From contig CAJMLL010000004.1 of NCBI GenBank assembly GCA_905214225.1, positions 1 through 64,000 of the forward strand: a DNA stretch of 64,000 nucleotides, in the 5' to 3' direction. Source of the DNA: an uncultured bacterium (GTDB taxonomy: Bacteria > Bacillota > Clostridia > Peptostreptococcales > Anaerovoracaceae). Each line of letters begins with the position of its first letter. Position 1 is the first letter of the stretch. The notes beneath the pieces were generated by a model, which saw only the letters and a program-made list of their open reading frames with translations, did no database searches and had not been told where the DNA came from. Shown piece after piece: positions 9,278 to 60,207 of this stretch. Position numbers and translations under genes: made by a program.

Positions 9278-10705
9278 CTAACCAAACAGTGCCATGTACC
9301 AGCCAGTCTTGCTGAAGAAGAAGCTGCTGATCTGAACGAATACGATGAATGCCATGACGATCGGGCAGATCCAGCGGAAACAGAAGTTGACGAACTTGCG
9401 GCTTCCGTAGTTGGATCCGATCTGAACTTCATCATCCAGATATCCGTAATGCACCCATCCGAAGAGGATGGCCATGATCAGTCCGCCGAGCGGCATCAGG
9501 ATGCCCTCTGCGCCCAGATCGAATACGTCGAGCCAGCTGCCCATTCCGAAAGGCTTCCAGAAATGTGTATTTCCGCCGAGCTGGTCATAGGCAACCAGGA
9601 ATGCGCCGATGCAGGTTGTGCAGATGGCGAGGAGAACCATGCCGATTCTTCCGGAGGACTTGCCTTTCTTCAGACGGCTGTCGATCAGTGCGGCAACGCC
9701 GCCTTCCATCATGCCGATGGAGGAACTGAGTGCTGCGATGAATACCAGAAGGTAGAATATGAAGCCGAAGACCGGTCCGCCGGCTCCCATTTTCTGGAAT
9801 ACATACTGAAGGGAGACGAAGAGAAGTCCAGGGCCTCCTGCAGGCTGCAGTCCTTCCGCAAATACGGCAGGCATTACGCAGAGACCTGCTGCAAGTGCTG
9901 CGACAGTGTCCAGAAGAGGGATCATGAATGCACTCTTCTGAATGTCGTCTTCTTTCTGCATGTAGGATCCGAAGGCGATCAGGCATCCGGATGCGAGAGA
10001 CAGAGAGAAGAAGAGCTGGCTTCCTGCTGCTGCCATGACTTTCAGCCATCCTGTTCCGGCGAGAATGGAGAAATCAGGCTTGAACATGAACTTCAGTCCG
10101 CCGACGGCGCCTTTCAGTGTGCAGCAGCGGATTGCTGTAATGAGAAGCAGAAGGTAAAGTGCCGGCATGGCGACCTTGGAGAATTTTTCAATTCCCTTGG
10201 ATACGCCGCCCATAATGATGACAGCAGTGATAAACAGGAATCCGAACATCCAGGCGAGGTCGACACCGACATGACCGATGGAATTACCGAAGTATTTGGA
10301 CGGGTCTGTTCCGTTAACGCCCCAGCCTGCATGGAAAATGTCGCCGAAGTTGACCACCATGTATTTCATGACCAGCCCGCCGAGAACACAGTAGAAGCAG
10401 AGCAGGAAGAACGGAACAATGGTTTCGAACACACCATTAAAGGTAAAGCGCGGATCGCAGTCGTGATAAGCGTCGACTGCGGATTTTCCGGTCTTGCGTC
10501 CCAGGGCGATTTCGCCGACCATCAGTGGGTAGCCGAGGAATACGGCCATGGCTATGTAGATAATAATGAAGGCGAAACCTCCGTTCATTCCCATTTTGTA
10601 CGGGAATCCCCAGATGTTGCCAAGGCCGACTGCGGAGCCGACTGCAGCCATCAGGAAGCCGAAGTTGGAATTAAAGCTTCCACGCTGCGAAGATTTCTGT
10701 GACAT
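9278..10705 (-). CDS. Sodium-dependent symporter, NSS/SNF family
   Basis: 475 residues, about 11-12 membrane helices. The diagnostic first helix AAVGSAVGLGNIWGFPY (residues 20-36) holds the Na+ and substrate site of LeuT-like transporters, and GYPLMVGEIALGRKTG follows. The family couples Na+ entry to uptake of amino acids such as tryptophan, tyrosine or leucine; the substrate is not determinable. It lies between the APC permease and a LysR gene. A GGTTCATA dyad sits near its promoter. Confidence 0.93.
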   Translation of the reverse strand: MSQKSSQRGSFNSNFGFLMAAVGSAVGLGNIWGFPYKMGMNGGFAFIIIYIAMAVFLGYPLMVGEIALGRKTGKSAVDAYHDCDPRFTFNGVFETIVPFFLLCFYCVLGGLVMKYMVVNFGDIFHAGWGVNGTDPSKYFGNSIGHVGVDLAWMFGFLFITAVIIMGGVSKGIEKFSKVAMPALYLLLLITAIRCCTLKGAVGGLKFMFKPDFSILAGTGWLKVMAAAGSQLFFSLSLASGCLIAFGSYMQKEDDIQKSAFMIPLLDTVAALAAGLCVMPAVFAEGLQPAGGPGLLFVSLQYVFQKMGAGGPVFGFIFYLLVFIAALSSSIGMMEGGVAALIDSRLKKGKSSGRIGMVLLAICTTCIGAFLVAYDQLGGNTHFWKPFGMGSWLDVFDLGAEGILMPLGGLIMAILFGWVHYGYLDDEVQIGSNYGSRKFVNFCFRWICPIVMAFIVFVQISSFFFSKTGWYMALFG

Positions 10706-10778
10706 AAAAATCCCTCTCTTTCATGAATAATAATGAATAAAGTAAGTTATGTTTATTGTACAAGAACAATATTCGATC

Positions 10779-10816
10779 GGTTCATATATTATGAACCAAA
10801 ATTTAGGGATTTACAA
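10779..10816 (-). promoter_or_regulatory. Promoter and dyad upstream of the symporter
   Basis: The perfect dyad GGTTCATA-TAT-TATGAACC (10779-10797) overlaps a possible minus-strand -10 (CATAAT, complement of 10788-10793), with TTGTAA (complement of 10811-10816) at 17 bases. An operator for the nearby LysR is plausible but unproven. Confidence 0.45.
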
Positions 10817-10951
10817 TAATTTATTGGAAAATTTTTTAGGCTATTTCGAAAGAATACGGAAAAATTAATTGTAGTCTGAATATCAGAATTAATTTTATAT
10901 GAGCAGAAAAGATATCGGTGTATATTTATAGCAGATTCAGTCCGGCAGAAA

Positions 10952-11124
10952 CAAAAAAAGAAAATATCCGCCGGATAGCGGATATTTTCCTGGATTGGAT
11001 TGATTTGTTTTACTTCACTTTATGCGAATATCCCGGAGAAAGGATGTCCGCATGGATCTGCTGATCCATAAAAGCTCAGGAGAGGCCGTGCATTTCATTT
11101 ATACACGCCTTCTCTATACATAAT
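10952..11124 (-). ncRNA. Candidate small RNA between symporter and LysR
   Basis: A 12-base perfect hairpin (GAAAATATCCGC 10960-10971 with GCGGATATTTTC 10978-10989), followed on the minus strand by seven T, is a strong terminator. It serves no annotated gene. About 140 bases upstream on the same strand is TATAAT (complement of 11126-11131) with a weak -35. The unit between holds a hairpin TGGATC-AGCA-GATCCA and a 27-codon ORF (MKCTASPELLWISRS...) with a modest AGAAGG site. It may be a small RNA or a small protein gene. Nothing matches a family I recognise. Confidence 0.4.
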
Positions 11125-11171
11125 GATTATACCACATTTTTTGCGTTAAAGTATACAAAAATCATGCGTTT

Positions 11172-11194
11172 TATGATACTATTTTTGTATCATA
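11172..11194 (+). promoter_or_regulatory. Dyad upstream of the second LysR gene
   Basis: TATGATAC (11172-11179) and GTATCATA (11187-11194) flank a seven-base AT spacer. This fits the T-N11-A layout of LysR sites and lies about 80 bases ahead of the lysR start. Autoregulation is the likely role. Confidence 0.5.
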
Positions 11195-11270
11195 TGGGAA
11201 AAAGGGGAAGAAGGCCTGAACGGGATGAAGAATCTTTTCTTATCCAGACAGGAAAACGGGAGGTTGGATT

Positions 11271-12224
11271 ATGGATTTTCGCAATTTACAATATTTCCTG
11301 ACGGTGGCGCAGTGCCTTAATTTTACCAAGGCTGCAGAAAGGCTTCATATGAGTCAGCCGCCTCTGAGCAAGCAGATTCAGAATCTGGAGCAGGATCTCG
11401 GTGTCAAACTGTTTGACAGGAGCAGGAGGCAGCTTCAGCTGACGGAGGCGGGACAGACACTGGTGCACAGAGCCGAGCAAATGCTGACGCTGGCGGACAA
11501 GACACGTCTGGATCTGCAGGAAATGACGGACAAGCTTGCCGGCTCCATCAATATTTCAGTGGTAGACGGCCGTGCGCCGTACTATTTAGCACGCTGGATT
11601 GCTGCTTTCCGTGAGAAGAATCCGATGGTCCGCTTTGAATTTGCAAACGGATCCAGCGATGACGCATTGGAGAGAGTGGATCAGGGACTTTCCGATCTGG
11701 CCGTCGCCGCGGCGCCGTACGATGAAGAGGAATTCAGCGGATTCAGCGTCGGAAAAACACCATGGATTGCAGTCATTCCGAAGGCCCATCCGCTTGCACA
11801 GCGAGAGGGGGAGGAACTTCCGCTTTCCCTTCTGAAAGGGGAACCGCTGATCGGTCCGCAGAGACCGTCCCGGGCGAGAGCGCTCAGAAGATGGTTCCGG
11901 GAAGTGGGAGAAGAGGCGAATGTTGTCTGCAGCACATCCAGCTACAGCGATACCATCGCGCTCTGTGAGCAGCATGTGGGAATCGGAATTTTCCCGCAGA
12001 CCACCTATACACCGAACCCGTATATCGTCCGCAAGGTCATTACCGAGCCGTCCAAGTACATAGAATATGTACTCCTCTGGCAGAAGAATGCGCACGTCAG
12101 TGTCCTGGTAAAGGAATTTACCGATTTTGTACGCGAATACGTGGAAGAGTCCGCGAAAAACGTTCCGCTTCTGATGAACGGACAGAATGAATTCAAGATT
12201 CCGGACGATGCAGAGATGCTTTAA
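11271..12224 (+). CDS. LysR-family transcriptional regulator
   Basis: 317 residues. The N-terminal winged HTH is typical (FRNLQYFLTVAQCLNFTKAAERLHMSQPPLSKQIQNLE, residues 3-40) and is followed by an effector-binding domain. Start ATG 11271 has a GGGAGG-like site. It is divergent from the sodium symporter and separated from it by two dyads and a possible small RNA, so the transporter is the best guess as target. It ends in a strong terminator. Confidence 0.9.
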   Translation: MDFRNLQYFLTVAQCLNFTKAAERLHMSQPPLSKQIQNLEQDLGVKLFDRSRRQLQLTEAGQTLVHRAEQMLTLADKTRLDLQEMTDKLAGSINISVVDGRAPYYLARWIAAFREKNPMVRFEFANGSSDDALERVDQGLSDLAVAAAPYDEEEFSGFSVGKTPWIAVIPKAHPLAQREGEELPLSLLKGEPLIGPQRPSRARALRRWFREVGEEANVVCSTSSYSDTIALCEQHVGIGIFPQTTYTPNPYIVRKVITEPSKYIEYVLLWQKNAHVSVLVKEFTDFVREYVEESAKNVPLLMNGQNEFKIPDDAEML

Positions 12225-12258
12225 TTCTCCGGACAAAAAGCAGACGAGCAAGGAAACA

Positions 12259-12312
12259 GAAGGGCAGATCCCGCAGCTTCAGGCAGAGCCGCGGGTATTC
12301 TGCCCTTTTTTT
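12259..12312 (+). terminator. Terminator of the second LysR gene
   Basis: AGGGCAG and CCCGC segments pair with GCGGG and CTGCCCT across the loop, followed by seven T. Confidence 0.8.
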
Positions 12313-12660
12313 GTGCTTTCCGCAAGCGGCAGCAGGCTGCCCGCTGTCTGGCCGGCCGACCCGGAACATGAAAAGTACAGGTTTCAATACTTTTGTGACT
12401 CTATATCAAAAAGCTATTATAAAAACTAGTAAAAAAATATCATAGTTTAGCAGACTGAAGTAAAGAGTGCTTAAAATCACAGCAGTCTTCTTGCAGATGA
12501 GTTTTGTCTTGAAATGGAATCCGGTGTAAATGTTGAAATAATGGGAACTACAGGACATTGACATCTGTATTGGCGTCTTAAGGTATACAGTATAATTTGT
12601 GTTTGAAATATAAAATTGAAAGAAATATTTAGATAAAACTTGATCATATTTGATAATCTA
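12313..12660. other. AT-rich intergenic region ahead of the oxidoreductase operon
   Basis: About 350 bases without a coding frame. A second possible promoter (TTGACA near 12556 with TATAAT-like bases further on, spacing poor) may be present. No structured RNA is evident. Confidence 0.35.
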
Positions 12661-12689
12661 TTGACATACGTGTTGGATTGGAATATTCT
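12661..12689 (+). promoter_or_regulatory. Promoter of the ATPase-korDABC operon
   Basis: TTGACA (12661-12666), a 17-base spacer, TATTCT (12684-12689), 31 bases before the ATG of the first gene. Confidence 0.6.
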
Positions 12690-12719
12690 AAAAATATCAA
12701 AAATAGGGGAGATGAAGAG

Positions 12720-13418
12720 ATGCCGGACATGACAGATAAATTGAAGCAATATTGCGATGCTAACAAGGTGCTGATTATCACCGGGCATTATGGCAGCGGA
12801 AAAACAGAGATTGCTATGAATTTGGCGGTTGACCAGGCCCAGAGAGAAAAAAGCAGACGCGTCGCGATTGCAGATCTGGATATCGTCAATCCGTATTTCC
12901 GTTCAAGAGATTATTCTTCATTATATGAAAAGTACGGAATCCGGATGATGGCAAGCTCGCGCTCGGCCTCAGATGCAGATCTGCCGACACTGCCGGCGGA
13001 CATCAGAGCAGCGTTTGATCAGGAGGATCTTTTCACGATATTCGATGTGGGAGGAGATCCGACCGGCGCGCATGTCCTCCGCGGATATACGAGGTGGCTG
13101 GCAAATGTTCCGCACGCGATGCTGGTTGTGGTAAATGCGAACCGGCCGCAGACGGACACGGCAGAAAAAGCCGCCGCATATATTGCGGAAATCGAAAAGG
13201 CCAGCGGGCTGAAGGCGGATGGAATCATTGACAACACGCATCTCTGCAGAGAAACGACGGCAGGAGAACTGGAAAAAGGCCGCCGGATCTGCGCGGAAAT
13301 TTCTGAACATACTGGTCTGGACACGGTCTGCCACACCGAAGAGAAAGCGAAATTTGCTTCCGGTGAAAGTGACGTGTATCCGATCAATATATATTTGAAA
13401 AAACCCTGGGAAGTTTAA
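12720..13418 (+). CDS. P-loop ATPase (CobQ/MinD-like) leading the 2-oxoacid oxidoreductase operon
   Basis: 232 residues from ATG 12720 (AGGGGAGA upstream); a TTG 14 codons earlier overlaps the promoter and is rejected. Walker A is GHYGSGKT (residues 22-29), a DLDIVNPYFRSRD switch-like segment follows, and DVGGDPTGAHVL resembles Walker B. SIMIBI/MinD-type ATPases often load metals or iron-sulfur cofactors or position complexes. Here the gene sits 30 bases before the ferredoxin subunit of a 2-oxoacid oxidoreductase, so a maturation or assembly role is plausible. That role is inference. Confidence 0.7.
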   Translation: MPDMTDKLKQYCDANKVLIITGHYGSGKTEIAMNLAVDQAQREKSRRVAIADLDIVNPYFRSRDYSSLYEKYGIRMMASSRSASDADLPTLPADIRAAFDQEDLFTIFDVGGDPTGAHVLRGYTRWLANVPHAMLVVVNANRPQTDTAEKAAAYIAEIEKASGLKADGIIDNTHLCRETTAGELEKGRRICAEISEHTGLDTVCHTEEKAKFASGESDVYPINIYLKKPWEV

Positions 13419-49978: not shown

Positions 49979-50893
49979 TTAGCCCATCTCTACCATTTTC
50001 TCGATCGGCTTCAGCGCTTCTTTGCGAACCTGCTCGGACAGCTGGATTTCCTCCCCGCCGGCTCCGGTCACGGCGCGGTAGATGTCCATCAGTGTGGTTG
50101 CCGCCATGTTATGGCAGACACATTCCTTGGACAGCGGATAGAAGACCTTGTCCGGGCACTTGAACTGCAGGTGCTGGACGATGCTGTGCTCCGTGCCGAT
50201 GATAAACTCCTTATTGCTGCTTTCCTCCGCGTGCTTCATGATGCCTGTGGTGCTTCCGATGTAATCGGCATGCTTTCTGACTTCCTCCAGAACTTCCGGA
50301 TGAACCAGAATCTCAGCATTCGGGTGAGCGGCTTTTGCCAGCTTCACGTCGCGCTCGATCATGCGCATATGGGTCGGGCAGCCGCCGTTGACGAAGATAA
50401 ATTCCTTATCCGGGAGCTGTTCCTCACACCAGGATCCCAGGTTGCAGTCCGGGATAAACACGATCTGCTTATTCAGGATCTGCTTCAGAATCTTTACGGC
50501 TGAAGAGGACGTGACGACCACATCGACAGCGCGCTTCAGGTCAGAAGTCGTATTGATGTAGGCGACGATTGCCGCATCCGGATATTCTTCTCTCAGCTTC
50601 AGCACATCGTCACGGTCCATCTGCGCGGCCATCGGACATCCCGCCAGAGAATTGGCCAGCAGAACCTTCTTATCCGGGGAAAGCAGTTTTACCGTCTCCG
50701 CCATAAACCGTACACCGGACATGATGATGGTCTTCTGCGGAGCCTTGGACGCCTGGACACTCAGACCGTAAGAATCGCCGATATAGTCGGCAACGTCCCA
50801 GATGTCCTGGCTCTGATAAGCGTGTGCCAGAATGCAGACATCATTTTCCTTCTTCTTCTCCATGATGGCATCCTGAAGTTCTCTAGTGTTCAT
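49979..50893 (-). CDS. nadA: Quinolinate synthase
   Basis: 304 residues, cytosolic 4Fe-4S enzyme that condenses iminoaspartate with dihydroxyacetone phosphate to quinolinate. Cluster cysteines lie in NSLAGCPMAAQM, VNGGCPTHMRMIE and KECVCHNMAATTL. LAHAYQSQDIWDVADYIGDS near the start binds substrate. It is divergent from nadB with paired palindromic sites between. A 200-base leader precedes it. Confidence 0.96.
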   Translation of the reverse strand: MNTRELQDAIMEKKKENDVCILAHAYQSQDIWDVADYIGDSYGLSVQASKAPQKTIIMSGVRFMAETVKLLSPDKKVLLANSLAGCPMAAQMDRDDVLKLREEYPDAAIVAYINTTSDLKRAVDVVVTSSSAVKILKQILNKQIVFIPDCNLGSWCEEQLPDKEFIFVNGGCPTHMRMIERDVKLAKAAHPNAEILVHPEVLEEVRKHADYIGSTTGIMKHAEESSNKEFIIGTEHSIVQHLQFKCPDKVFYPLSKECVCHNMAATTLMDIYRAVTGAGGEEIQLSEQVRKEALKPIEKMVEMG

Positions 50894-51106
50894 TGTTTAA
50901 CCTCCGAAAGCTGCTTTTTCCAATTCTTTCTCTTCCATCCATTCTGTGCGGACAAAATCTGACTGGCAAGGGGACAGGAAAGCCTGCGGCCGTTTCCTTT
51001 ATCACCCCATGGCCTGTGAGATTGTTAAGTGAAAATATGAATTATTCCGTTTTTATGGACATATAAATAAAATAATAATCCGCACATCTCTTGTTCATTG
51101 ATTTTC

Positions 51107-51147
51107 AGTATAGAACCACTGTCTTTACATGTCAAGATAAATGTAAA
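51107..51147 (-). promoter_or_regulatory. nadA promoter and candidate NiaR site A
   Basis: Minus-strand TTGACA (complement of 51130-51135), a 17-base spacer and TATACT (complement of 51107-51112). The dyad TTTACAT...ATGTAAA (51124-51147) covers the -35. NiaR is encoded downstream at 53767, making it the probable repressor when nicotinate is plentiful. Confidence 0.7.
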
Positions 51148-51157
51148 CCTTAATGTT

Positions 51158-51196
51158 GATAGGTGTCTTGTCACATGTAAAATCTAGTGCTATAAT
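51158..51196 (+). promoter_or_regulatory. nadBC promoter and candidate NiaR site B
   Basis: TTGTCA (51168-51173), a 17-base spacer and TATAAT (51191-51196). The segment GATAGGTGTCTTGTCACATG overlaps the -35 and shares TTTACATGT-n-CAAGA, in the opposite sense, with site A. Confidence 0.7.
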
Positions 51197-51203
51197 GACG
51201 ATA

Positions 51204-51342
51204 AATTGATACAGATGCAGGAATGGGGCCCCTGCATCGGGTAAACCACGTCAGGAAAACGTGACAGACGGATATGTGGTGAAGGACACTGCATCCGCAC
51301 GTTCCATAAACGCAGGGAGTAAATCAGGAAAGGGATATTATC
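51204..51342 (+). promoter_or_regulatory. Structured leader of nadB with alternative pairings
   Basis: About 140 untranslated bases. Stem 1: GATGCAGG (51214-51221) with CCTGCATC (51231-51238). Stem 2: CACGT (51247-51251) with ACGTG (51259-51263). Stem 3: CGGAT (51269-51273) with ATCCG (51293-51297), inner GTG/CAC. CTGCATC recurs at 51289-51295, so the 5' strand of stem 1 can pair with either copy, and the second choice breaks stem 3. This resembles a switching RNA. I do not recognise a known riboswitch class. Confidence 0.45.
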
Positions 51343-52734
51343 ATGTTAAAGACGGATATTTTAATTGTTGGATCGGGATGCTCCGGTCTGTACACAGCAC
51401 TTAAACTTCCGAGCGATAAGAAGATTTTAATCATCACAAAATCAGACGCGGAATCCTGTGACAGTTTTCTGGCTCAGGGCGGCATCTGCGTACTGAAAGA
51501 TATTTCCGACTATGACAGCTACTTTGAAGATACCATGCGTGCCGGTCACTATGAGAATGACCGGAAATCCGTGGATATCATGATCCGCTCTTCGCAGAAA
51601 GTCATTCAGAATCTGATTGACTGCGGCGTACAGTTCCATCATGATGCGTCCGGTCATCTGGATTTCACCAGAGAGGGTGCACATTCTCATAAGAGAATTC
51701 TTTTCCATGAGGACGAGACCGGCAAGGAAATCACCAAACACCTTCTGGCTGCGGCGCGCGCGCTGCCGAACGTCACGCTTCTGGAGCATACAACGATGAT
51801 GGATATGGTGGAAGAGGACAATACCTGCTACGGAGCTGTCATTAAAAAGGAAAACGGCGAACTGGACATGGTCCAGGCAGATTATACGATCCTGGCTACA
51901 GGCGGAATCGGCGGGCTGTATGAACATTCCACGAACTACCGCCATCTGACCGGCGACGGCGTTGCCATGGCCATCCGTCACGGACTCCGCCTGAAGAACA
52001 TCAATTACGTACAGATTCACCCGACGACCTTCTACACGACCAATCCGGAGGACCGTTCCTTCCTGATTTCCGAGTCTGTAAGAGGCGAGGGCGCCAAACT
52101 CTATGATAAGAACATGCAGCGTTTCACCAATGAACTGCTTCCGAGGGACCTTCTGACCATCGAAATCAAGAAGCAGATGAAGAAGGACGGAACCAGACAT
52201 GTCTGGGAAGACCTGCGCACGATTCCTTATGAAGAGCGCCACACGCATTTCCCGAACATCATCGAGCACTGCCTGGAAATGGGCTATGACCCGGATAAGG
52301 AGCCGATTCCGGTTGTACCGGCTCAGCACTATTACATGGGCGGCGTCTGGGTCAACCATGAGAGCAAGACTTCGATGAATCAGCTGTACGCGGTCGGAGA
52401 AACCGCATGCAACGGCGTACACGGGAAGAACCGTCTCGCCAGCAATTCACTTCTTGAAAGTATGGTTTTTGCCGGAAGAGCGGCAGACGACCTGATGAAC
52501 AGTTATGCGCAGGTAAAGCATGATCCTGAAGCCTTCCGCCGTGTCGATCTGTCCCAGTATGAGGATGAATCCGCACTGAAGGAGCTCTATGCAGATCTCG
52601 TCAAAAAAGAAATTGACAAGGCGGACAGGGAAATGAGAATCCGCGAGGCTGATGCGGAGGAAACGGCTGCAGAGGGAATTCATCCCCAGGCACAGGCCGG
52701 GAAGCAGGATGCTCATCACGGCGCCAGAGCCTAG
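51343..52734 (+). CDS. nadB: L-aspartate oxidase
   Basis: 463 residues, FAD flavoprotein that oxidises aspartate to iminoaspartate for NadA. FAD loop ILIVGSGCSGLYTALKLP at the start, LAQGGICVL, the HSHKRILFHEDETG substrate-loop region, and GGVWVNHESKTSMNQLYAVGETACNGVHG near the C-terminal flavin site. It is shorter than the E. coli enzyme, lacking most of the C-terminal helical domain, as seen in clostridia. The last 35 residues are Ala/His-rich and poorly conserved. AGGAAAGGG precedes the start. Confidence 0.94.
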   Translation: MLKTDILIVGSGCSGLYTALKLPSDKKILIITKSDAESCDSFLAQGGICVLKDISDYDSYFEDTMRAGHYENDRKSVDIMIRSSQKVIQNLIDCGVQFHHDASGHLDFTREGAHSHKRILFHEDETGKEITKHLLAAARALPNVTLLEHTTMMDMVEEDNTCYGAVIKKENGELDMVQADYTILATGGIGGLYEHSTNYRHLTGDGVAMAIRHGLRLKNINYVQIHPTTFYTTNPEDRSFLISESVRGEGAKLYDKNMQRFTNELLPRDLLTIEIKKQMKKDGTRHVWEDLRTIPYEERHTHFPNIIEHCLEMGYDPDKEPIPVVPAQHYYMGGVWVNHESKTSMNQLYAVGETACNGVHGKNRLASNSLLESMVFAGRAADDLMNSYAQVKHDPEAFRRVDLSQYEDESALKELYADLVKKEIDKADREMRIREADAEETAAEGIHPQAQAGKQDAHHGARA

Positions 52735-52802
52735 GCCTCTTGAACAGGTAAATTTTGTCAGAAAAAAGAAAGGAGCGCGGCGAAGCCGCTGAAAACGAAG
52801 AG

Positions 52803-53663
52803 ATGATGCTAGATCCGATAACGATGAAGTTAAATGCTGATCCGCTGATCCGCTCAGCGCTGAAGGAAGATATTACCAGTGATGATGTGTCGACGAACAG
52901 TGTCATGCCGGAAGCGAAGGCGGGAACGGTAGATCTGATGGCCAAGGGGGATGGAATTCTCTGTGGTGCGCAGGTATTTCAGAGGACCTTCCAGCTGCTG
53001 GATCCCCAGACGGAAGTAATCTGGGAGAAGAAGGATGGCGACGCGGTGAAAAGAGGTGAGCGTCTGGCTGTCGTAAACGGAGATATCCGGGTGCTTCTCT
53101 CGGGAGAGCGGACGGCCCTGAATTATCTTCAGCGGATGAGCGGAATTGCGACCTATACGCATCAGATGGCGGAAAAACTGAAGGGAAGTGGGATTAAGCT
53201 CCTGGATACCAGAAAGACGACGCCGAACAACAGGATTTTCGAGAAGTACGCGGTTACGGTGGGCGGCGGATGCAACCATCGCTATAATCTGTCTGACGGG
53301 GTTATGCTGAAGGATAATCACATCGGCGCGGCGGGCGGAATCCGTCAGGCTGTGGAGGCGGCGAGAAATTACGCGCCATTCGTCCGGAAGATCGAGGTCG
53401 AGACGGAGAATCTGGACATGGTGAAGGAAGCGCTGGATGCCGGCGCAGACATTATTATGCTGGATAACATGGATCACGAGCAGATGAAAGAGGCGGTAAA
53501 GCTGATTGACGGAAGGGCGGAGATTGAAGCGTCCGGAAATGTGTCCATGGAAAATCTGGAGAGTTTCAGAGATCTGGGTATCGATTATGTGTCCAGCGGG
53601 GCACTGACGCATTCCGCGCCGATTCTGGACCTGTCGCTGAAACACCTGCATCCAGTGGAATAG
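52803..53663 (+). CDS. nadC: Nicotinate-nucleotide pyrophosphorylase (carboxylating)
   Basis: 286 residues if started at ATG 52803; a TTG at 52755 would add 16 charged residues and neither has a strong ribosome site. Signatures: LIRSALKEDITSDDVSTNSV, ERTALNYLQRMSGIATYTHQ, LLDTRKTTPNNRIFEKYAV and GADIIMLDNMDHEQM. It converts quinolinate and PRPP to nicotinate mononucleotide, completing the de novo branch with NadA and NadB. Confidence 0.94.
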   Translation: MMLDPITMKLNADPLIRSALKEDITSDDVSTNSVMPEAKAGTVDLMAKGDGILCGAQVFQRTFQLLDPQTEVIWEKKDGDAVKRGERLAVVNGDIRVLLSGERTALNYLQRMSGIATYTHQMAEKLKGSGIKLLDTRKTTPNNRIFEKYAVTVGGGCNHRYNLSDGVMLKDNHIGAAGGIRQAVEAARNYAPFVRKIEVETENLDMVKEALDAGADIIMLDNMDHEQMKEAVKLIDGRAEIEASGNVSMENLESFRDLGIDYVSSGALTHSAPILDLSLKHLHPVE

Positions 53664-53766
53664 GGTGGAAATTCATCGTCAAAACGGGTATTGGAATCGG
53701 AAATATTGTATAATAGGAAGATAGAAAAAAGTGTGTGATGAATCTGGAAAGTGAGGTTGGTGTTTC

Positions 53767-54369
53767 TTGAACAATAAAGTACGCAGGGAAGAAATTAAGA
53801 AACTCCTGCTTGCCAGTGAACGGCCGGTTTCAGGCGGCAGAATCGCGAAGAAGTTTAAGGTCAGCCGCCAGGTGGTGGTCCAGGACATTGCGCTGCTGAG
53901 GGCAAACGGGCTGGACATTCTTTCTACGAACAGGGGATATGTTCTGCAGAAACAGAAGTCTGTCTGCACGCGGGTGTTTAAGGTCTGCCACACGGAGGAA
54001 CAGACAGAAGAAGAGCTGAATATGGTTGTCGATCTGGGCGGCCGGTTTCTGGATGTATTCGTCTATCACCGTGCTTACGGGCTGATCCGCACGGAACTGC
54101 ACATCCGCTCCAGACTGGATGTTGCTGCGTATATCCATGAAATTTCAACGGGAAAATCACGTGAACTGCTGAATATCACTTCGGGGTACCATTATCATAC
54201 GATTGAGGCAGACAGTGAGGAAATCCTGGACCTGATTCAGGAGAAACTGCAGGAAAAAGGTTTCTTGGCAAAACTCAGTGCCTATGAACCGGTGGATTTT
54301 CAGAAACAGGCAGCGGGGCGCCAGGCGGCAGGAATGAAGGCGAGTGCGGCCGGTGCTGCAAGATCGTAA
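53767..54369 (+). CDS. niaR: NiaR-type nicotinate-responsive repressor
   Basis: 200 residues from a TTG start with GAGGT upstream. HTH_11 domain at about 3-60 (REEIKKLLLASERPVSGGRIAKKFKVSRQVVVQDI), then a 3H domain whose three histidine-bearing segments are visible (FVYHRAYGLIRTELHIRS, YIHEISTG, GYHYHTIEAD). The family binds nicotinate and represses NAD synthesis and niacin uptake. A TATAAT at 53709-53714 suggests it also has its own promoter. The Ala/Gly-rich last 20 residues are not conserved. Confidence 0.92.
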   Translation: MNNKVRREEIKKLLLASERPVSGGRIAKKFKVSRQVVVQDIALLRANGLDILSTNRGYVLQKQKSVCTRVFKVCHTEEQTEEELNMVVDLGGRFLDVFVYHRAYGLIRTELHIRSRLDVAAYIHEISTGKSRELLNITSGYHYHTIEADSEEILDLIQEKLQEKGFLAKLSAYEPVDFQKQAAGRQAAGMKASAAGAARS

Positions 54370-54396
54370 GGAAAAGGCAGTTTCAGAAAGACAGCA

Positions 54397-54452
54397 GATT
54401 CGGAACTCATTTCTGCACTTGTCGGCAGAGTGAGAATTCCGGATCTTTTTTT
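54397..54452 (+). terminator. Terminator of the nad-niaR unit
   Basis: Long imperfect stem (GAT-TCGGAA / TTCCGG-ATC with inner CTCA/TGAG and CTGC/GCAG) followed by seven T. Confidence 0.8.
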
Positions 54453-54622
54453 ATGGGAAAAGAAAAAAATTCCTGAAAAATGGCAGGGAAATACTGTGAT
54501 TTCTGTCTGCTGTGCAAAACAGGCATTCTTTCCGTTTTGAAATATGTTATACTTAAAATTAGTCGGAAAGCGGCAGGATCCTGCCGTTTTGAATAACTTG
54601 GAAAATGAGGAGGAATGACGTC

Positions 54623-55000
54623 ATGTTTAAGGTAACAGCTACAGACAAGGCTCCGGCAGCAATCGGACCGTATTCTCAGGCAATCGCAGCCAACGGAATT
54701 CTGTTTGCATCCGGACAGATTGGAATTGATCCGGCAGCAGGAAAGATCACAGCAGACACCATCGAGGGTCAGGCAGAGCAGGCATGCAAGAATGTCGCAG
54801 AGGTTCTGAAGGCAAATGGACTGACATTCGATCAGGTTATCCGTACCACATGCTATCTGAGTGATATGGGCAATTTCAAGGCATTTAATGACGTTTACGC
54901 AAAGTATTTCACGAGCAAGCCGGCACGTTCCTGCGTAGCCGTAAAGGAAATTCCGGCAGGCGCACTGTGCGAGATTGAAATTACAGCGATCATGGATTAG
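54623..55000 (+). CDS. ridA: RidA-family enamine/imine deaminase
   Basis: 125 residues from ATG 54623 (AGGAGG nine bases upstream). Full YjgF/RidA motif set: APAAIGPYSQAIAANGILFASGQIG, the catalytic arginine in KYFTSKPARSCVAV, and EIPAGALCEIEITAIM. A trimer hydrolyses reactive enamines from PLP enzymes. Monocistronic, with an extended -10 (TGTTATACT near 54545) and terminator at 55033. Confidence 0.95.
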   Translation: MFKVTATDKAPAAIGPYSQAIAANGILFASGQIGIDPAAGKITADTIEGQAEQACKNVAEVLKANGLTFDQVIRTTCYLSDMGNFKAFNDVYAKYFTSKPARSCVAVKEIPAGALCEIEITAIMD

Positions 55001-55032
55001 TCATTTTGACCGGAAATACGATTTTATTATAG

Positions 55033-55089
55033 CAGAACAGAACGGAAGCGGGAGTTTTGGGACATTTTCGCCCTTCTGTTCTGTTTTTT
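55033..55089 (+). terminator. Terminator of ridA
   Basis: CAGAACAGAA (55033-55042) pairs with TTCTGTTCTG (55074-55083), followed by TTTTTT. Confidence 0.85.
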
Positions 55090-55168
55090 GTTTGGATATC
55101 AGAAAAACTGTGTTATTATAGGGATGGTATGATGTGATTGACAACATATAACGAGAGAAGGGGTGTCA

Positions 55169-55822
55169 ATGAGCAATTCAAAGAAAAAATATGTCTATGA
55201 ATCGCGTTATCAGCAGATTTCTGTCGAGATTGCCAAGCGAATTGCGGAAGGATGGTACGCCGTCGGAGAAAGATTGAATGCGCGTACGACACTTGCCAGC
55301 AATTACGGTGTTTCTCCGGAAACGGCCAGAAAAGCTGTTCACATTCTCTGTGATCTGGGCATCATGGAAGTCCGTCAGGGAAGCGGCACTTACGTGCTTT
55401 CCCGTCAGAAGGCACAGCAGTTCCTGGAGCGCTATCAGAATACCGTTTCTGTTGAACAGGTCAGAGCGGAAATCAACGCCTGCGTAAAGAACCAGCAGAA
55501 GGAGATCGAACATCTGTCCAAGCTCCTGAACAAGCTGATCGGACAGACCACCAGAGACCGTGCGGGATATACCCTGGAACCCTATGAGCTCCACATTGAC
55601 GAGCACTGCTATTATCTGGGAAAAACGATCGGTGAAGTGAACATCTGGCAGGAAACCGGCGCGACCATTGTCGAGGTTATGCGTGATGACACATTCATCG
55701 TTTCGCCGGGACCGTATGAAAAGATCCAGGCCGGCGATACCCTGCTGTTCGTCGGAAACGAGGAGTCCAGACAGAGGATGCTGAATCTCTTCTGTGCACC
55801 TCCGGAGAACGAGAAGAATTAA
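55169..55822 (+). CDS. GntR-type regulator with C-terminal RCK_C domain (BusR-like)
   Basis: 217 residues from ATG 55169 (AGAAGGGG upstream). Winged HTH of the GntR/YtrA kind at about 8-75 (GVSPETARKAVHILCDLGIMEVRQGSGTYVLS), a coiled-coil linker, and a TrkA_C/RCK_C domain at about 130-210 (IGEVNIWQETGATIVEVMRDDTFIVSPGP, AGDTLLFVGNEES). This is the BusR arrangement, which senses c-di-AMP and represses osmolyte or potassium transport. No such transporter is adjacent, so the target lies elsewhere. Confidence 0.85.
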   Translation: MSNSKKKYVYESRYQQISVEIAKRIAEGWYAVGERLNARTTLASNYGVSPETARKAVHILCDLGIMEVRQGSGTYVLSRQKAQQFLERYQNTVSVEQVRAEINACVKNQQKEIEHLSKLLNKLIGQTTRDRAGYTLEPYELHIDEHCYYLGKTIGEVNIWQETGATIVEVMRDDTFIVSPGPYEKIQAGDTLLFVGNEESRQRMLNLFCAPPENEKN

Positions 55823-55832
55823 TCGTTCAGAG

Positions 55833-55926
55833 TCGTCTCGTCATAGAGGAAACAGACATATTCATGATCGAAGGGATGTGGAATGCATGCCTTCTTTTTT
55901 ATATAGATAGTCTGTTCATCAGACGA
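55833..55926 (+). terminator. Terminator of the BusR-like gene inside a larger stem
   Basis: GAAGG-G-ATG / CAT-G-CCTTC followed by TTTTTT (about 55869-55902) is a regular terminator. It is enclosed by two more paired segments (GTCGTCT/AGACGAC and AACAGAC/GTCTGTT), giving an unusually large nested fold. Confidence 0.65.
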
Positions 55927-56015
55927 CAACAGGGTCCCCGGGCAGCCGCCAGACGCTTCAGCGTCGTGGAGGGGCATTATGCCGGAAGCAGGGGAGCTGG
56001 GGATCCGGACATACG

Positions 56016-56056
56016 AAAAGCCGGCTGCTGAATCGTCATTCCGCAGCCGGCTTTAA
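56016..56056. terminator. Strong bidirectional terminator
   Basis: AAAGCCGGCTGC (56017-56028) pairs with GCAGCCGGCTTT (56043-56054). It ends the leftward RNA unit and can block rightward read-through. Confidence 0.85.
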
Positions 56057-56534
56057 TAAACTGTCCTGATCGTATTCAATTTTACCTCTCAATCGTAATC
56101 TATCCGATAAAGAACATCCACATGTTCTAAAGGAATCATTCACAATTTTCCCAGCATAACTCATCTGCAGAAAATTTCATCGTCTTACGATTATTCCGGG
56201 CTTCAGCTCTCACCCTGAGGTTTGAAAACGCTCCATGCATCTTATTCTGTCATATTCATCCGGCAGGCCTTATTGCCTTACACCGTTCCACTCGATTGTG
56301 TTAAAAAGTTGATCTCCAGATGCCGTTTTCAACCGATGAGGCCTCGCCCATCTCTGTCACCCGGACCATTCATATAAAGAAGATTTCTCATCTTAATACT
56401 CATCTCCTTTCTGTTTGGGGATCATGATTTCCGGTTTCTGAAAACCGGTTTCCAGCCACTCCCGGCTGACTTCATAAAGCATTTCGGGTTAACCTCTATC
56501 TTGCTTTATCTTTTTTCCTTGATCCTTATCTTTG
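56016..56534 (-). ncRNA. Candidate large noncoding RNA (about 520 nt)
   Basis: A leftward unit with an ideal promoter (56540-56568) and a strong terminator holds no long ORF on its sense strand. Local hairpins are frequent: CCGGTTT-TCAG-AAACCGG, AGAACAT-GTGG-ATGTTCT, ATCGT-AAG-ACGAT, plus longer-range GATGAG/CTCATC and GTTGA/TCAAC. The 5' third carries two tandem micro-ORFs of 29 codons (MLYEVSREWLETGFQKPEIM...) and 20 codons (MRNLLYMNGPGDRDGRGLIG), the second behind AAAGGAG. It lacks the motifs I know for tmRNA, RNase P RNA, SRP RNA or 6S RNA. It could be one of the large ornate RNA classes, a regulatory RNA, or a small-protein operon with a long tail. Confidence 0.45.
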
Positions 56535-56539
56535 TCTAA

Positions 56540-56568
56540 AGTATAGCGCAGGATTGCATGTTTGTCAA
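56540..56568 (-). promoter_or_regulatory. Promoter of the large RNA unit
   Basis: On the minus strand TTGACA (complement of 56563-56568), exactly 17 bases, TATACT (complement of 56540-56545). Confidence 0.85.
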
Positions 56569-56867
56569 TGCAATTATTAAAAAACAACAAAAATACATTT
56601 GAAAGTTTGTGTATACATAATATATCTTATGCAGTCAGCGCTGCTGAAAGGCTGTCGGAAGGGCGTGTATGAGAAGAAAATCAGCTAACCCAGCGGGCCG
56701 CTGTGATTCACTGCAGTCTTGCTGGGTATGTATTTGTCGGAACTTGTGCTATAATCGTACAGTCTAATTGACAAGCGGTCCGGAAGGGCCGGAAAATGAC
56801 TAATAATTAGGGGAAATGGAAGAATGCCGGAAAGGCACTTCTGTTCCTGTGTAAAGGAGAATAATTT

Positions 56868-57686
56868 ATGGCAGGTTGTAATCATGACTGCAGTTCCTGT
56901 GGGGAAAACTGCGGTGAAAGAACGGAAATTCAGAAGCTGAAAGTGAATAAGCATTCCAAGGTCCGCAAGGTAATCGGTGTTGTCAGCGGCAAGGGCGGAG
57001 TCGGAAAGTCTTCCGTAACTTCTATGCTGGCATCTGCAGCGCGCCGTCAGGGCCTGAAGGTTGCGATCCTGGATGCGGATATCACAGGTCCATCTATTCC
57101 GAAGGCATTCGGCGCAGAGGAAACACCTAAGGGAAATGCGGAAAACGAGATCTATCCGGTTGTGACGAAGACGGGAATCGAGATCATGTCCACCAACCTT
57201 CTGCTTCAGAATGATACCGACCCGGTTCTCTGGAGAGGACCGATTCTGGGCGGTGCGATCCAGCAGTTCTGGACAGACGTTGTATGGGGAGACATCGATG
57301 TGATGTTCGTCGATATGCCTCCGGGGACAGGCGACGTTGCCCTGACCGTATATCAGCAGCTTCCGGTTGACGGAATCGTCATCGTCACATCCCCGCAGCA
57401 GCTGGTTGAGATGATCGTCGAGAAGGCGGTAAACATGGCGGATATGATGAACATTCCGGTTCTGGGACTGGTTGAGAACATGTCTTACTTTAAATGTCCG
57501 GACTGCGGTTCCATTCACCACATCTTCGGCGAGAGCCACGTAGATGAAGTTGCGAAGAAGCATTCCATTCCTCGCACATGCTCTCTTCCGATCGACAGCA
57601 GCCTGGCAGAGGCCTGCGACAAGGGAGAGGTCGAGTCCTATCAGTCCGAAGAGATGGACAAGCTTGCAGCTGAGCTGACAAAGTAG
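56868..57686 (+). CDS. mrp: Mrp/ApbC-family P-loop ATPase (iron-sulfur carrier)
   Basis: 272 residues. N-terminal cysteines (CNHDCSSCGENCG, 4-16), deviant Walker A GKGGVGKS (41-48), ILDADITGPSIPKAFG, MFVDMPPGTGDVALT and the dimer-bridging CPDC (210-213). A homodimer carries and transfers 4Fe-4S clusters. An extended -10 (TGCTATAAT 56747-56755) lies about 110 bases upstream. AAAGGAG precedes the start. Single gene. Confidence 0.92.
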   Translation: MAGCNHDCSSCGENCGERTEIQKLKVNKHSKVRKVIGVVSGKGGVGKSSVTSMLASAARRQGLKVAILDADITGPSIPKAFGAEETPKGNAENEIYPVVTKTGIEIMSTNLLLQNDTDPVLWRGPILGGAIQQFWTDVVWGDIDVMFVDMPPGTGDVALTVYQQLPVDGIVIVTSPQQLVEMIVEKAVNMADMMNIPVLGLVENMSYFKCPDCGSIHHIFGESHVDEVAKKHSIPRTCSLPIDSSLAEACDKGEVESYQSEEMDKLAAELTK

Positions 57687-57816
57687 AAATTCGCAAGAGG
57701 CCGGGCTGCTGAAAGAACACTCAGGCAGAGAGCGCGATACGGCTCCGCATAATAATAAGCTGCGGGCGTTGCCATTTGGAATTTTTTCTGTAATTTCAAA
57801 ACGTCGGAGAGGAGTT

Positions 57817-57957
57817 TTGAAAAATCTGTTCCGGAATCATAGTATAATCGTGATTCCTCAATGGATTGGAATGTGCGCACTTTAATTGTGGGATCATCTG
57901 CATACAAGGAATATAAAAACAGCGGGGATTGGCAGCATTCCCCGCTGTTTTTAATAG
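57817..57957 (+). ncRNA. Possible short RNA upstream of glpK
   Basis: TTGAAA (57817-57822) and TATAAT (57843-57848; spacing 20, too long) precede about 100 bases ending in a strong hairpin AAAACAGCGGGGA / TCCCCGCTGTTTT with a T run (to 57955). An ORF across it runs into the hairpin and is not credible. It may be a small RNA or just the mrp terminator region. The rest of this 440-base gap holds the glpK extended -10 (TGCTATAAT near 58079-58087). Confidence 0.3.
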
Positions 57958-58124
57958 GAACGGAATTGAATGTTCGGAAAATTAAAGTGTATGACTTATT
58001 GAAGCTGACTTCCCGCAGTGTCTTTTTTCCCGAAAGAAGCTCATTCCGCCGGATAAGAATGCAAAGATAGAAATAATTTGCTATAATAAGGAGATAAAAT
58101 TTCGGTAGTTGTTTTCTGAGGTGA

Positions 58125-59624
<1,500 letters not shown>

Positions 59625-59646
59625 TCTGCATTGAGAAAAGAGAGTT

Positions 59647-60207
59647 ATGCACTATATTGAAATATTATTAATCGGAATTGGACTGTCGATGGATGCGCTG
59701 GCAGTTTCTGTAAGCAAAGGGCTGTCACTGAAGAAGGTCCGGCCTTCCCATATGCTGAAGGCGGGGCTGTGGTTCGGCGGATTTCAGTTTCTGATGCCGG
59801 TGTTCGGCTGGCTGCTGGGAAGCGCCGCGGCGAAACTGGTAGACCGCTATGATCACTGGATTGCGTTCATTCTTCTGGCGCTGATCGGAGGAAATATGAT
59901 CCGTGAAGCCATCTGCGGCGATGACGAAGACCAGAATGATGCGATGAACGCAAAAATAATGTTTCTGCTGGCCGTGGCAACGAGTATCGACGCTCTGGCC
60001 GTGGGAGTGACCTTTGCCTTCATGGATGTGAAGGTGATTCCGGCGTCGCTTCTGATCGGTTGCACGACCTTTGTCATCAGCGCGGCCGGAATCCGGCTTG
60101 GCGGGATACTTGGAAATAAGTTCGAGCAGCATGCGCAGATCGTCGGCGGCATTGTTCTGATCGTCATCGGCGCCAGAATACTGCTGACCGGAATCGGCTG
60201 GCTGTAG
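59647..60207 (+). CDS. mntP: Manganese efflux pump MntP
   Basis: 186 residues, six membrane helices. Two-fold repeated motif with acidic residues: LIGIGLSMDALAVSVSKGL (helix 1) and LLAVATSIDALAVGVTFAFMD (helix 4), whose aspartates bind Mn2+. It exports excess Mn2+. No manganese riboswitch is visible in the 22-base gap after glpK, so control would come from the upstream promoter. Confidence 0.95.
   Translation: MHYIEILLIGIGLSMDALAVSVSKGLSLKKVRPSHMLKAGLWFGGFQFLMPVFGWLLGSAAAKLVDRYDHWIAFILLALIGGNMIREAICGDDEDQNDAMNAKIMFLLAVATSIDALAVGVTFAFMDVKVIPASLLIGCTTFVISAAGIRLGGILGNKFEQHAQIVGGIVLIVIGARILLTGIGWL

Follow-up and report, generated by a model that had tools for sequence, protein, structure and literature searches.

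The transcription unit at positions 56016–56568 (minus strand) of the window, as we call the whole 64,000-nt stretch of DNA analysed here, probably represents a new, genus-level family of dual-function RNAs that are structured and code for a peptide. Coding and structure do not appear to be alternatives in this unit, since signs of each are present in one transcript. From comparison with its counterparts in other genomes, we consider it, with a confidence slightly above even, to be the window copy of an RNA gene of the genus whose product is a message and a folded RNA at once.

The unit starts with a sigma-70-type promoter, TTGACA-N17-TATACT (56540..56568, minus strand; TTGACA at 56568–56563, TATACT at 56545–56540). 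The initial annotation called this promoter perfect, which is slightly too strong for a site that has 11 of the 12 consensus letters in the promoter scan. The region 53000–60000 contains 13 promoter-like sites versus 7.4 (sd 3.0) in shuffled sequences, and two of the 13 reach 11/12. An AT-rich stretch 5' of the promoter (56570..56600, minus strand), mostly kept in the alignment to the closest relative described below, is possibly an UP element. The transcript would be about 520 nt long (56016..56535, minus strand), its ends being placed according to the promoter and the terminator. The latter is an intrinsic terminator with a 12-bp stem and a T-run, AAAGCCGGCTGC ... GCAGCCGGCTTTT, found in the sequence at about 56054–56017 (minus strand); this hairpin (56017–56054) is absent from the list produced by the terminator scanner, which permits loops of 3–8 only. 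No sense-strand frame of at least 80 aa lies within the unit in the list of open reading frames. The orphan unit described in the annotation, comprising a promoter, ~520 nt devoid of a long sense ORF and a 12-bp terminator, is thus confirmed. A degraded protein gene was rejected as an explanation, since no long frame has been kept and structure has been kept instead.

In the window, the gene for a GntR-type regulator (55163–55822, plus strand) is convergent with the unit and an mrp-type gene (56868–57686, plus strand) is divergent from it. The best NCBIfam model for the latter is MrpORP, at 320.8 bits and thus under the cut-off of 450. With the GntR protein as a query against genome contigs, one close locus was retrieved, in a metagenome-assembled genome of the uncultured Eubacteriaceae bacterium UMB00019 (G001). 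The GntR proteins of the window and G001 are 96% identical and their genes 82% identical at the DNA level, indicating many silent-site changes between the two genomes. The identity of the regulator (96%) is above that of most neighbours (79–89%), suggesting that the regulator is strongly constrained. Along its whole length the unit shares 71% identity with its G001 counterpart, compared to about 81–82% for the DNA of the surrounding protein genes. In the alignment, G001 retains the unit from the AT-rich stretch and the promoter (TTGACA-17-TATAAT) to the terminator, with fully identical blocks; the unit is therefore conserved in a close relative, the opposite of what the annotation had named as a reason to abandon it. 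The terminator at 56017–56054 is nearly letter-identical in G001, including its loop, whereas terminator loops usually drift. A 5' hairpin with a near-invariant loop, ATAAAGCA ... TGCTTTAT (56474..56509, minus strand), was seen in the window and G001 only. About 1.2 kb without a BLAST match to the window separates the terminator from the GntR gene in G001 (L001 10670–11836), and terminator-like sites number eight in 10500–12900 of this region versus 2.7 expected. Elsewhere in the window, at 49979–54369, there is a run of genes that by eye resemble nadA, nadB, nadC and an HTH regulator gene; their order is the same in G001.

In order to find further members, three covariance models were built from the window and G001 sequences, R1 for the 5' part, R2 for the central part and R3 for the 3' module; genus and family groupings are those of the genome set searched. 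R1 matched G001 alone among 349 genomes of the family. In the order, 68 of 393 genomes had R1 matches at E 1 or better, G001 included, none further being convincing: the best 19 places after G001 were rejected as 5 to 10 letters off the 21-nt loop motif, and the one with five letters off (L045) resembles by eye a transposase gene. Searches with R2 against the 349 genomes recovered, besides G001, a locus in G013 at E 1.1e-6 and a third match (G464), which was rejected as the end of a pnp-like gene; nothing beyond G001 and G013 was found with R2 in 297 genomes of the order and 40 relatives. R3 matched G001 only among the 349 family genomes; run on the 11 units described below, it recognised just those of the window and G001. 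The G013 locus has a promoter (TTGACA-17-TATTAT), a Shine-Dalgarno sequence and codons for the peptide string GPGD; the last two fall outside the R2 model and match independently of it.

The G013 unit, used as a BLAST query, matched six of the 17 genomes of the genus, G001 being among the 17 (matches in G013, G005, G008, G010, G012 and G015), and a part of the G015 unit yielded ten matches in 64 relatives, of which G002, G003 and G009 were new. Matches of the latter query in G024 and G064, where the Shine-Dalgarno stretch precedes longer frames, had been removed prior to the count of carriers. By covariance model and BLAST together, 10/17 genus genomes carry the unit and the other seven gave no match; including the window, there are 11 units of 383–591 nt. 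Eight of them (all but those of the window, G001 and G013) were recovered through BLAST matches centred on the short reading frame, so that conservation of the frame partly reflects how the units were found. Two BLAST matches of 41 and 35 bases (G091 and G077) were rejected as chance, and two viral ones (L066 and L073) because both lie within longer phage reading frames. Searches of phages and plasmids, and of viral contigs with two conserved blocks, gave no match. TTGACA or TTGACT with a 17-nt spacer is present in all 11 units; the promoter score is beyond that of nearly all shuffles in five (0.006 or less) and at 0.11–0.19 in the other six. A clear T-run is missing at the terminator hairpins of the G008 and G010 units.

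The initial annotation had considered a structured RNA, and the folding analyses agree with this. The minimum free energy of 56016–56534 has a z-score of -3.97 (0/100 shuffles as low), and the consensus fold of the window and G001, computed without the terminator, one of -5.75 (0/60 column shuffles as low). The reverse-strand control of the consensus fold gave z -3.01 (0/60). In the same test the single-sequence energies were more extreme for the reverse strand (-6.52) than for the sense strand (-3.51), and energy alone therefore does not give the strand. Nine 160-nt control segments of two neighbouring genes ranged from -3.15 to +1.38, eight of them being at -0.67 or above. The predicted fold contains a central structured domain (56198..56349, minus strand) closed by helix P1, which pairs GGGC (56349–56346) with GCCC (56201–56198); within it lies an inner hairpin, CGGTGTAAGGC ... 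GCCTGCCG (56261..56285, minus strand; helices 7 and 8). A 3' module (56092..56191, minus strand) comprises ATCGTAA at 56191–56185 and the AUAGAUUACGAU region (TTACGAT, 56098–56092).

With GGGC and the GCCC that follows it taken as its ends, the central domain measures 136–157 nt in the 11 units. Compared with 300 shuffles each, all 11 domains have a folding energy lower than average (mean z -3.24, range -2.19 to -4.92). P1 is paired in 10/11 of the domains folded alone (not in G005), partly by construction because the cut picked complementary ends. In full-length folds, the GGGC-GCCC pairing has a probability of 0.47 or more in nine of the 11 units, P1 not being predicted in G005 and G012. Across the window, G001 and G013, both partners differ in 17 of 39 pairs, and pairing is kept in 99.1% of 116 cells versus 28–47% with slid partners; with G010 added (four units), the numbers are 20/39 and 97.4% of 151 cells versus 29–47%. 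These alignments were fitted to the R2 model and hence lean toward its structure. Compensatory changes of the kind expected of a structured RNA are thus present in the shared fold, on an alignment fitted to the model, and helices that covary while the sequence drifts, which the annotation itself had named as a test, agree with the new class it had considered. At E 1, R2 misses seven of the 11 units; for these the likeness consists of single-sequence predictions, in which by eye the long stem and inner hairpins recur. Abstract shapes of single folds were set aside as evidence, the same shape being found in 0.7–12% of shuffles. Taken together, the comparisons make the RNA fold of the central domain well supported. 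Seven units contain both the AUCGUAA and UUACGAU strings, which are predicted to pair above 0.5 in G001 alone. In seven units (G002, G003, G008, G009, G010, G012 and G013; loci L081, L076, L070, L077, L071, L068 and L061) a tandem AUAGAU-type motif, its two copies roughly 20 nt apart, sits by eye 5' of or inside a UUACGAUAUG element near the 3' end; the window and G001 have one copy. This tandem motif could be a binding site.

Two micro-ORFs of 29 and 20 codons had been reported, and both are present (56482–56393 and 56391–56329). The first, micro-ORF1 (56393..56482 with stop, minus strand; 49 codons in G001), overlaps the Shine-Dalgarno sequence of the second. Among the 11 units a counterpart of micro-ORF1 was not seen outside the window/G001 pair, and the G001 version matched one identical 49-aa entry only in a protein collection. 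Micro-ORF2, MRNLLYMNGPGDRDGRGLIG (56329..56391 with stop, minus strand), has a counterpart with the GPGD(ISGH) frame in 11/11 units. The small-protein operon suggested in the annotation therefore fits in part, its second frame being shared by all 11 units and its first seen only in the window and G001. The good ribosome site noted there is the AAAGGAG of micro-ORF2 (56404..56410, minus strand), which ends 12 nt 5' of the ATG and is predicted to pair with ATCTTCTT at 56384–56377. All 11 units have AAGGAG ending 8–12 nt before a start codon, TTG in G003 and G009, followed by 20–25 codons. Over the compared stretch the coding frame is open in 11/11 units, the other two frames in 6/11 and 5/11. 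In every unit the distance from the first base of the GPGD codons to the start of the P1 GGGC is 18 nt. The core of the frame reads GPGDISGH in G008, G010 and G012. Six other units carry a single change: R at the final position (G002, G015), F (G003, G009) or A (G013) in place of S, or S in place of P (G005). GPGD alone is retained in the window and G001. A literature search for the strings GPGDISGH and GPGDIS found no paper.

Whether this frame is translated was approached through its substitutions. Among the nine units other than those of the window and G001, the mean pairwise differences at the three positions of the eight core codons are 0.056, 0.097 and 0.323, and the third-position excess has a permutation value of 0.006 (0.0036 without the near-duplicate G009). 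Differences in the core codons are 60 synonymous to 32 nonsynonymous; read in the two alternative frames, the ratios are 2:64 and 27:55. An excess at third positions is absent from the codons on either side of the core, and the window and G001 differ in the frame by three synonymous and seven nonsynonymous codon changes. The synonymous bias that the annotation expected of small proteins is thus seen in the core codons, but neither in the flanking ones nor between the window and G001. With moderate support from these patterns, translation of the GPGD frame in the 11-unit family is likely.

It is possible, though unlikely, that the unit is instead a purely noncoding large structured RNA in which the Shine-Dalgarno/GPGD block is an RNA motif resembling a frame. 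The strong covariation of the central domain would be expected in that case, and the last part of the frame, with part of the core, is also a strand of P1, so that the constancy of the frame end has an RNA reason as well. The lack of third-position excess in flanking codons and the 3:7 ratio between the window and G001 agree with such a motif, as does the predicted burial of the micro-ORF2 Shine-Dalgarno sequence in the window, where its mean unpaired probability is 0.03 (0.20 in G001 and 0.26–0.97 in the other nine units, all predicted). Evidence against a motif of this kind comes from the start codon, Shine-Dalgarno spacing and open frame in 11/11 units and from the codon bias of the core with its permutation values.

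The converse reading, in which the unit is an mRNA for a small peptide and its long structured 3' part only stabilises the message or tunes its translation, appears unlikely. What BLAST recovers across the genus is the short frame, and in most other units the 5' part before the frame is short, both of which fit a message; yet the structured part is several times as long as the frame and covaries, and in the window and G001 the fold is kept although the core is down to GPGD.

An mrp gene lies at most 2.2 kb from the unit in 10/11 cases, being divergent in nine and codirectional in G008; no mrp was found within the 14 kb examined in G013. The nearest gene differs: it is mrp in the window, G001 and G012, a gene for an AEC-type permease in G002 and G005, and other genes in the rest. 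In some genomes, genes for the AEC-type permease (called under its curated cut-off), 5-formyltetrahydrofolate cyclo-ligase and a ferredoxin-like protein (labelled by eye, with no NCBIfam match) lie between the unit and mrp. The shared place near mrp is more in keeping with a single inherited gene than with a mobile element. A leader or riboswitch of a downstream gene was rejected for the window, where the next gene is convergent; G008 is an exception, as a codirectional reading frame begins there 45 nt past the assigned end of the unit, at which no clear T-run is present. A cis-acting element of the mrp neighbourhood, working on divergent genes through shared DNA or transcription, would suit the closeness to mrp and the arrangement in G008, but is improbable given the codirectional mrp in G008, the different location in G013 and the varying nearest gene, and a divergent promoter needs no long covarying transcript.

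For an RNA that is both message and fold, the geometry suggests how the two could be connected. With the stop counted, the frame reaches 21–42 nt past the first base of the GGGC strand, and hence lies with its end in the 5' strand of the domain, so that translation and folding should compete. A ribosome translating the short frame would have to open P1 and the lower stem, and the RNA would alternate between a translated form, with the peptide made and the domain open, and a folded form, with the domain closed, which would present the 3' AU-rich module. As in dual-function RNAs, the folded form would most likely have a partner, RNA or protein, on which it acts in trans; a role in trans is considered because no gene follows the unit in the window and neighbours differ among genomes. 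In the window and G001 an additional control may exist, the Shine-Dalgarno sequence of micro-ORF2 being locked in a predicted hairpin that translation of the overlapping micro-ORF1 would open. Micro-ORF1 runs across this Shine-Dalgarno sequence in the same frame in both genomes, despite a 57-nt difference in the stretch between; by shuffling, this stretch would remain open with probabilities of 0.41 and 0.11. The arrangement in these two genomes suggests a translational coupling special to the pair. Tentatively, and as a proposal we regard as doubtful in its full extent, the unit could be a translation-gated RNA, in which the GPGD(ISGH) frame is the sensor, a passing or pausing ribosome decides whether the ~150-nt domain can fold and act in trans, the importance of the peptide may lie mainly in its synthesis, and the upstream frame has been layered on in the window lineage in order to control access to that sensor.

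The unit would thus belong to a new RNA family that shows both coding and structural conservation to some degree, seen here in one genus and without a match in Rfam. Because frame and fold overlap at a fixed spacing, mutual exclusion of translation and folding is testable by a few point mutations. A 2017 paper describes peptide coding by bacterial small RNAs as common (PMC5521070), and according to a paper of 2021, dual-function RNAs had until then not been screened for genome-wide (PMC8672173).

With respect to known families, Rfam at gathering level gave one tRNA in the whole window and nothing in the unit, and E-value searches of the window region gave no Rfam match under 0.5. None of the Rfam 15 families, including OLE, ROOL, GOLLD, HEARO, raiA, 6S, RNase P and SRP, reached its gathering score on any of the 11 units. 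Across these, a single match had an E-value under 0.3: CsrC (E 8e-4), which hit the terminator hairpin of the G013 unit at 19.5 bits versus a gathering score of 61. The Rfam check proposed in the initial annotation has thus been run on the unit; its suggestion of an OLE, ROOL, GOLLD or HEARO type receives no support as regards membership, and its remark that housekeeping RNAs fit poorly holds for 6S, RNase P, SRP and, by ARAGORN, tmRNA. Like the unit, tmRNA is a structured RNA with a short internal frame, and its length range is similar. It was rejected, as ARAGORN found none in the window or in the ten loci with the other units; moreover, the unit ends 3' in a terminator hairpin, and its frame has a Shine-Dalgarno sequence and a start codon of its own. 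OLE, ROOL, GOLLD, HEARO and raiA share with the unit that they are large structured bacterial RNAs, but they are not known to share its position by mrp or its peptide frame. OLE of Clostridium acetobutylicum is given as 577 nt and HEARO of Limnospira as 343 nt (PMC12286853). A survey of structured RNAs in the human microbiome mentions candidates of 27–219 bp, some overlapping small genes (PMC8040213), and part of the unit may be among them without a name.

The closest parallels are RNAs such as RNAIII, SR1 and VcdRP, which like the unit combine a short peptide frame with a structured, possibly regulatory part, translation and base pairing being putative in the case of the unit. RNAIII of Staphylococcus aureus is, at about 514 nt, of similar length. 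In a dual-function RNA one transcript acts both as a base-pairing regulator and as an mRNA (PMC8672173); VcdRP of Vibrio cholerae, which carries a 29-aa peptide (PMC8672173), and SR1 of Bacillus subtilis (PMC8501984) are examples. No sequence relation of the unit to these three RNAs is claimed, the comparison having been made through Rfam only. What sets the unit apart from RNAIII, SR1 and VcdRP is that its frame enters the closing helix of a conserved fold at a fixed spacing.
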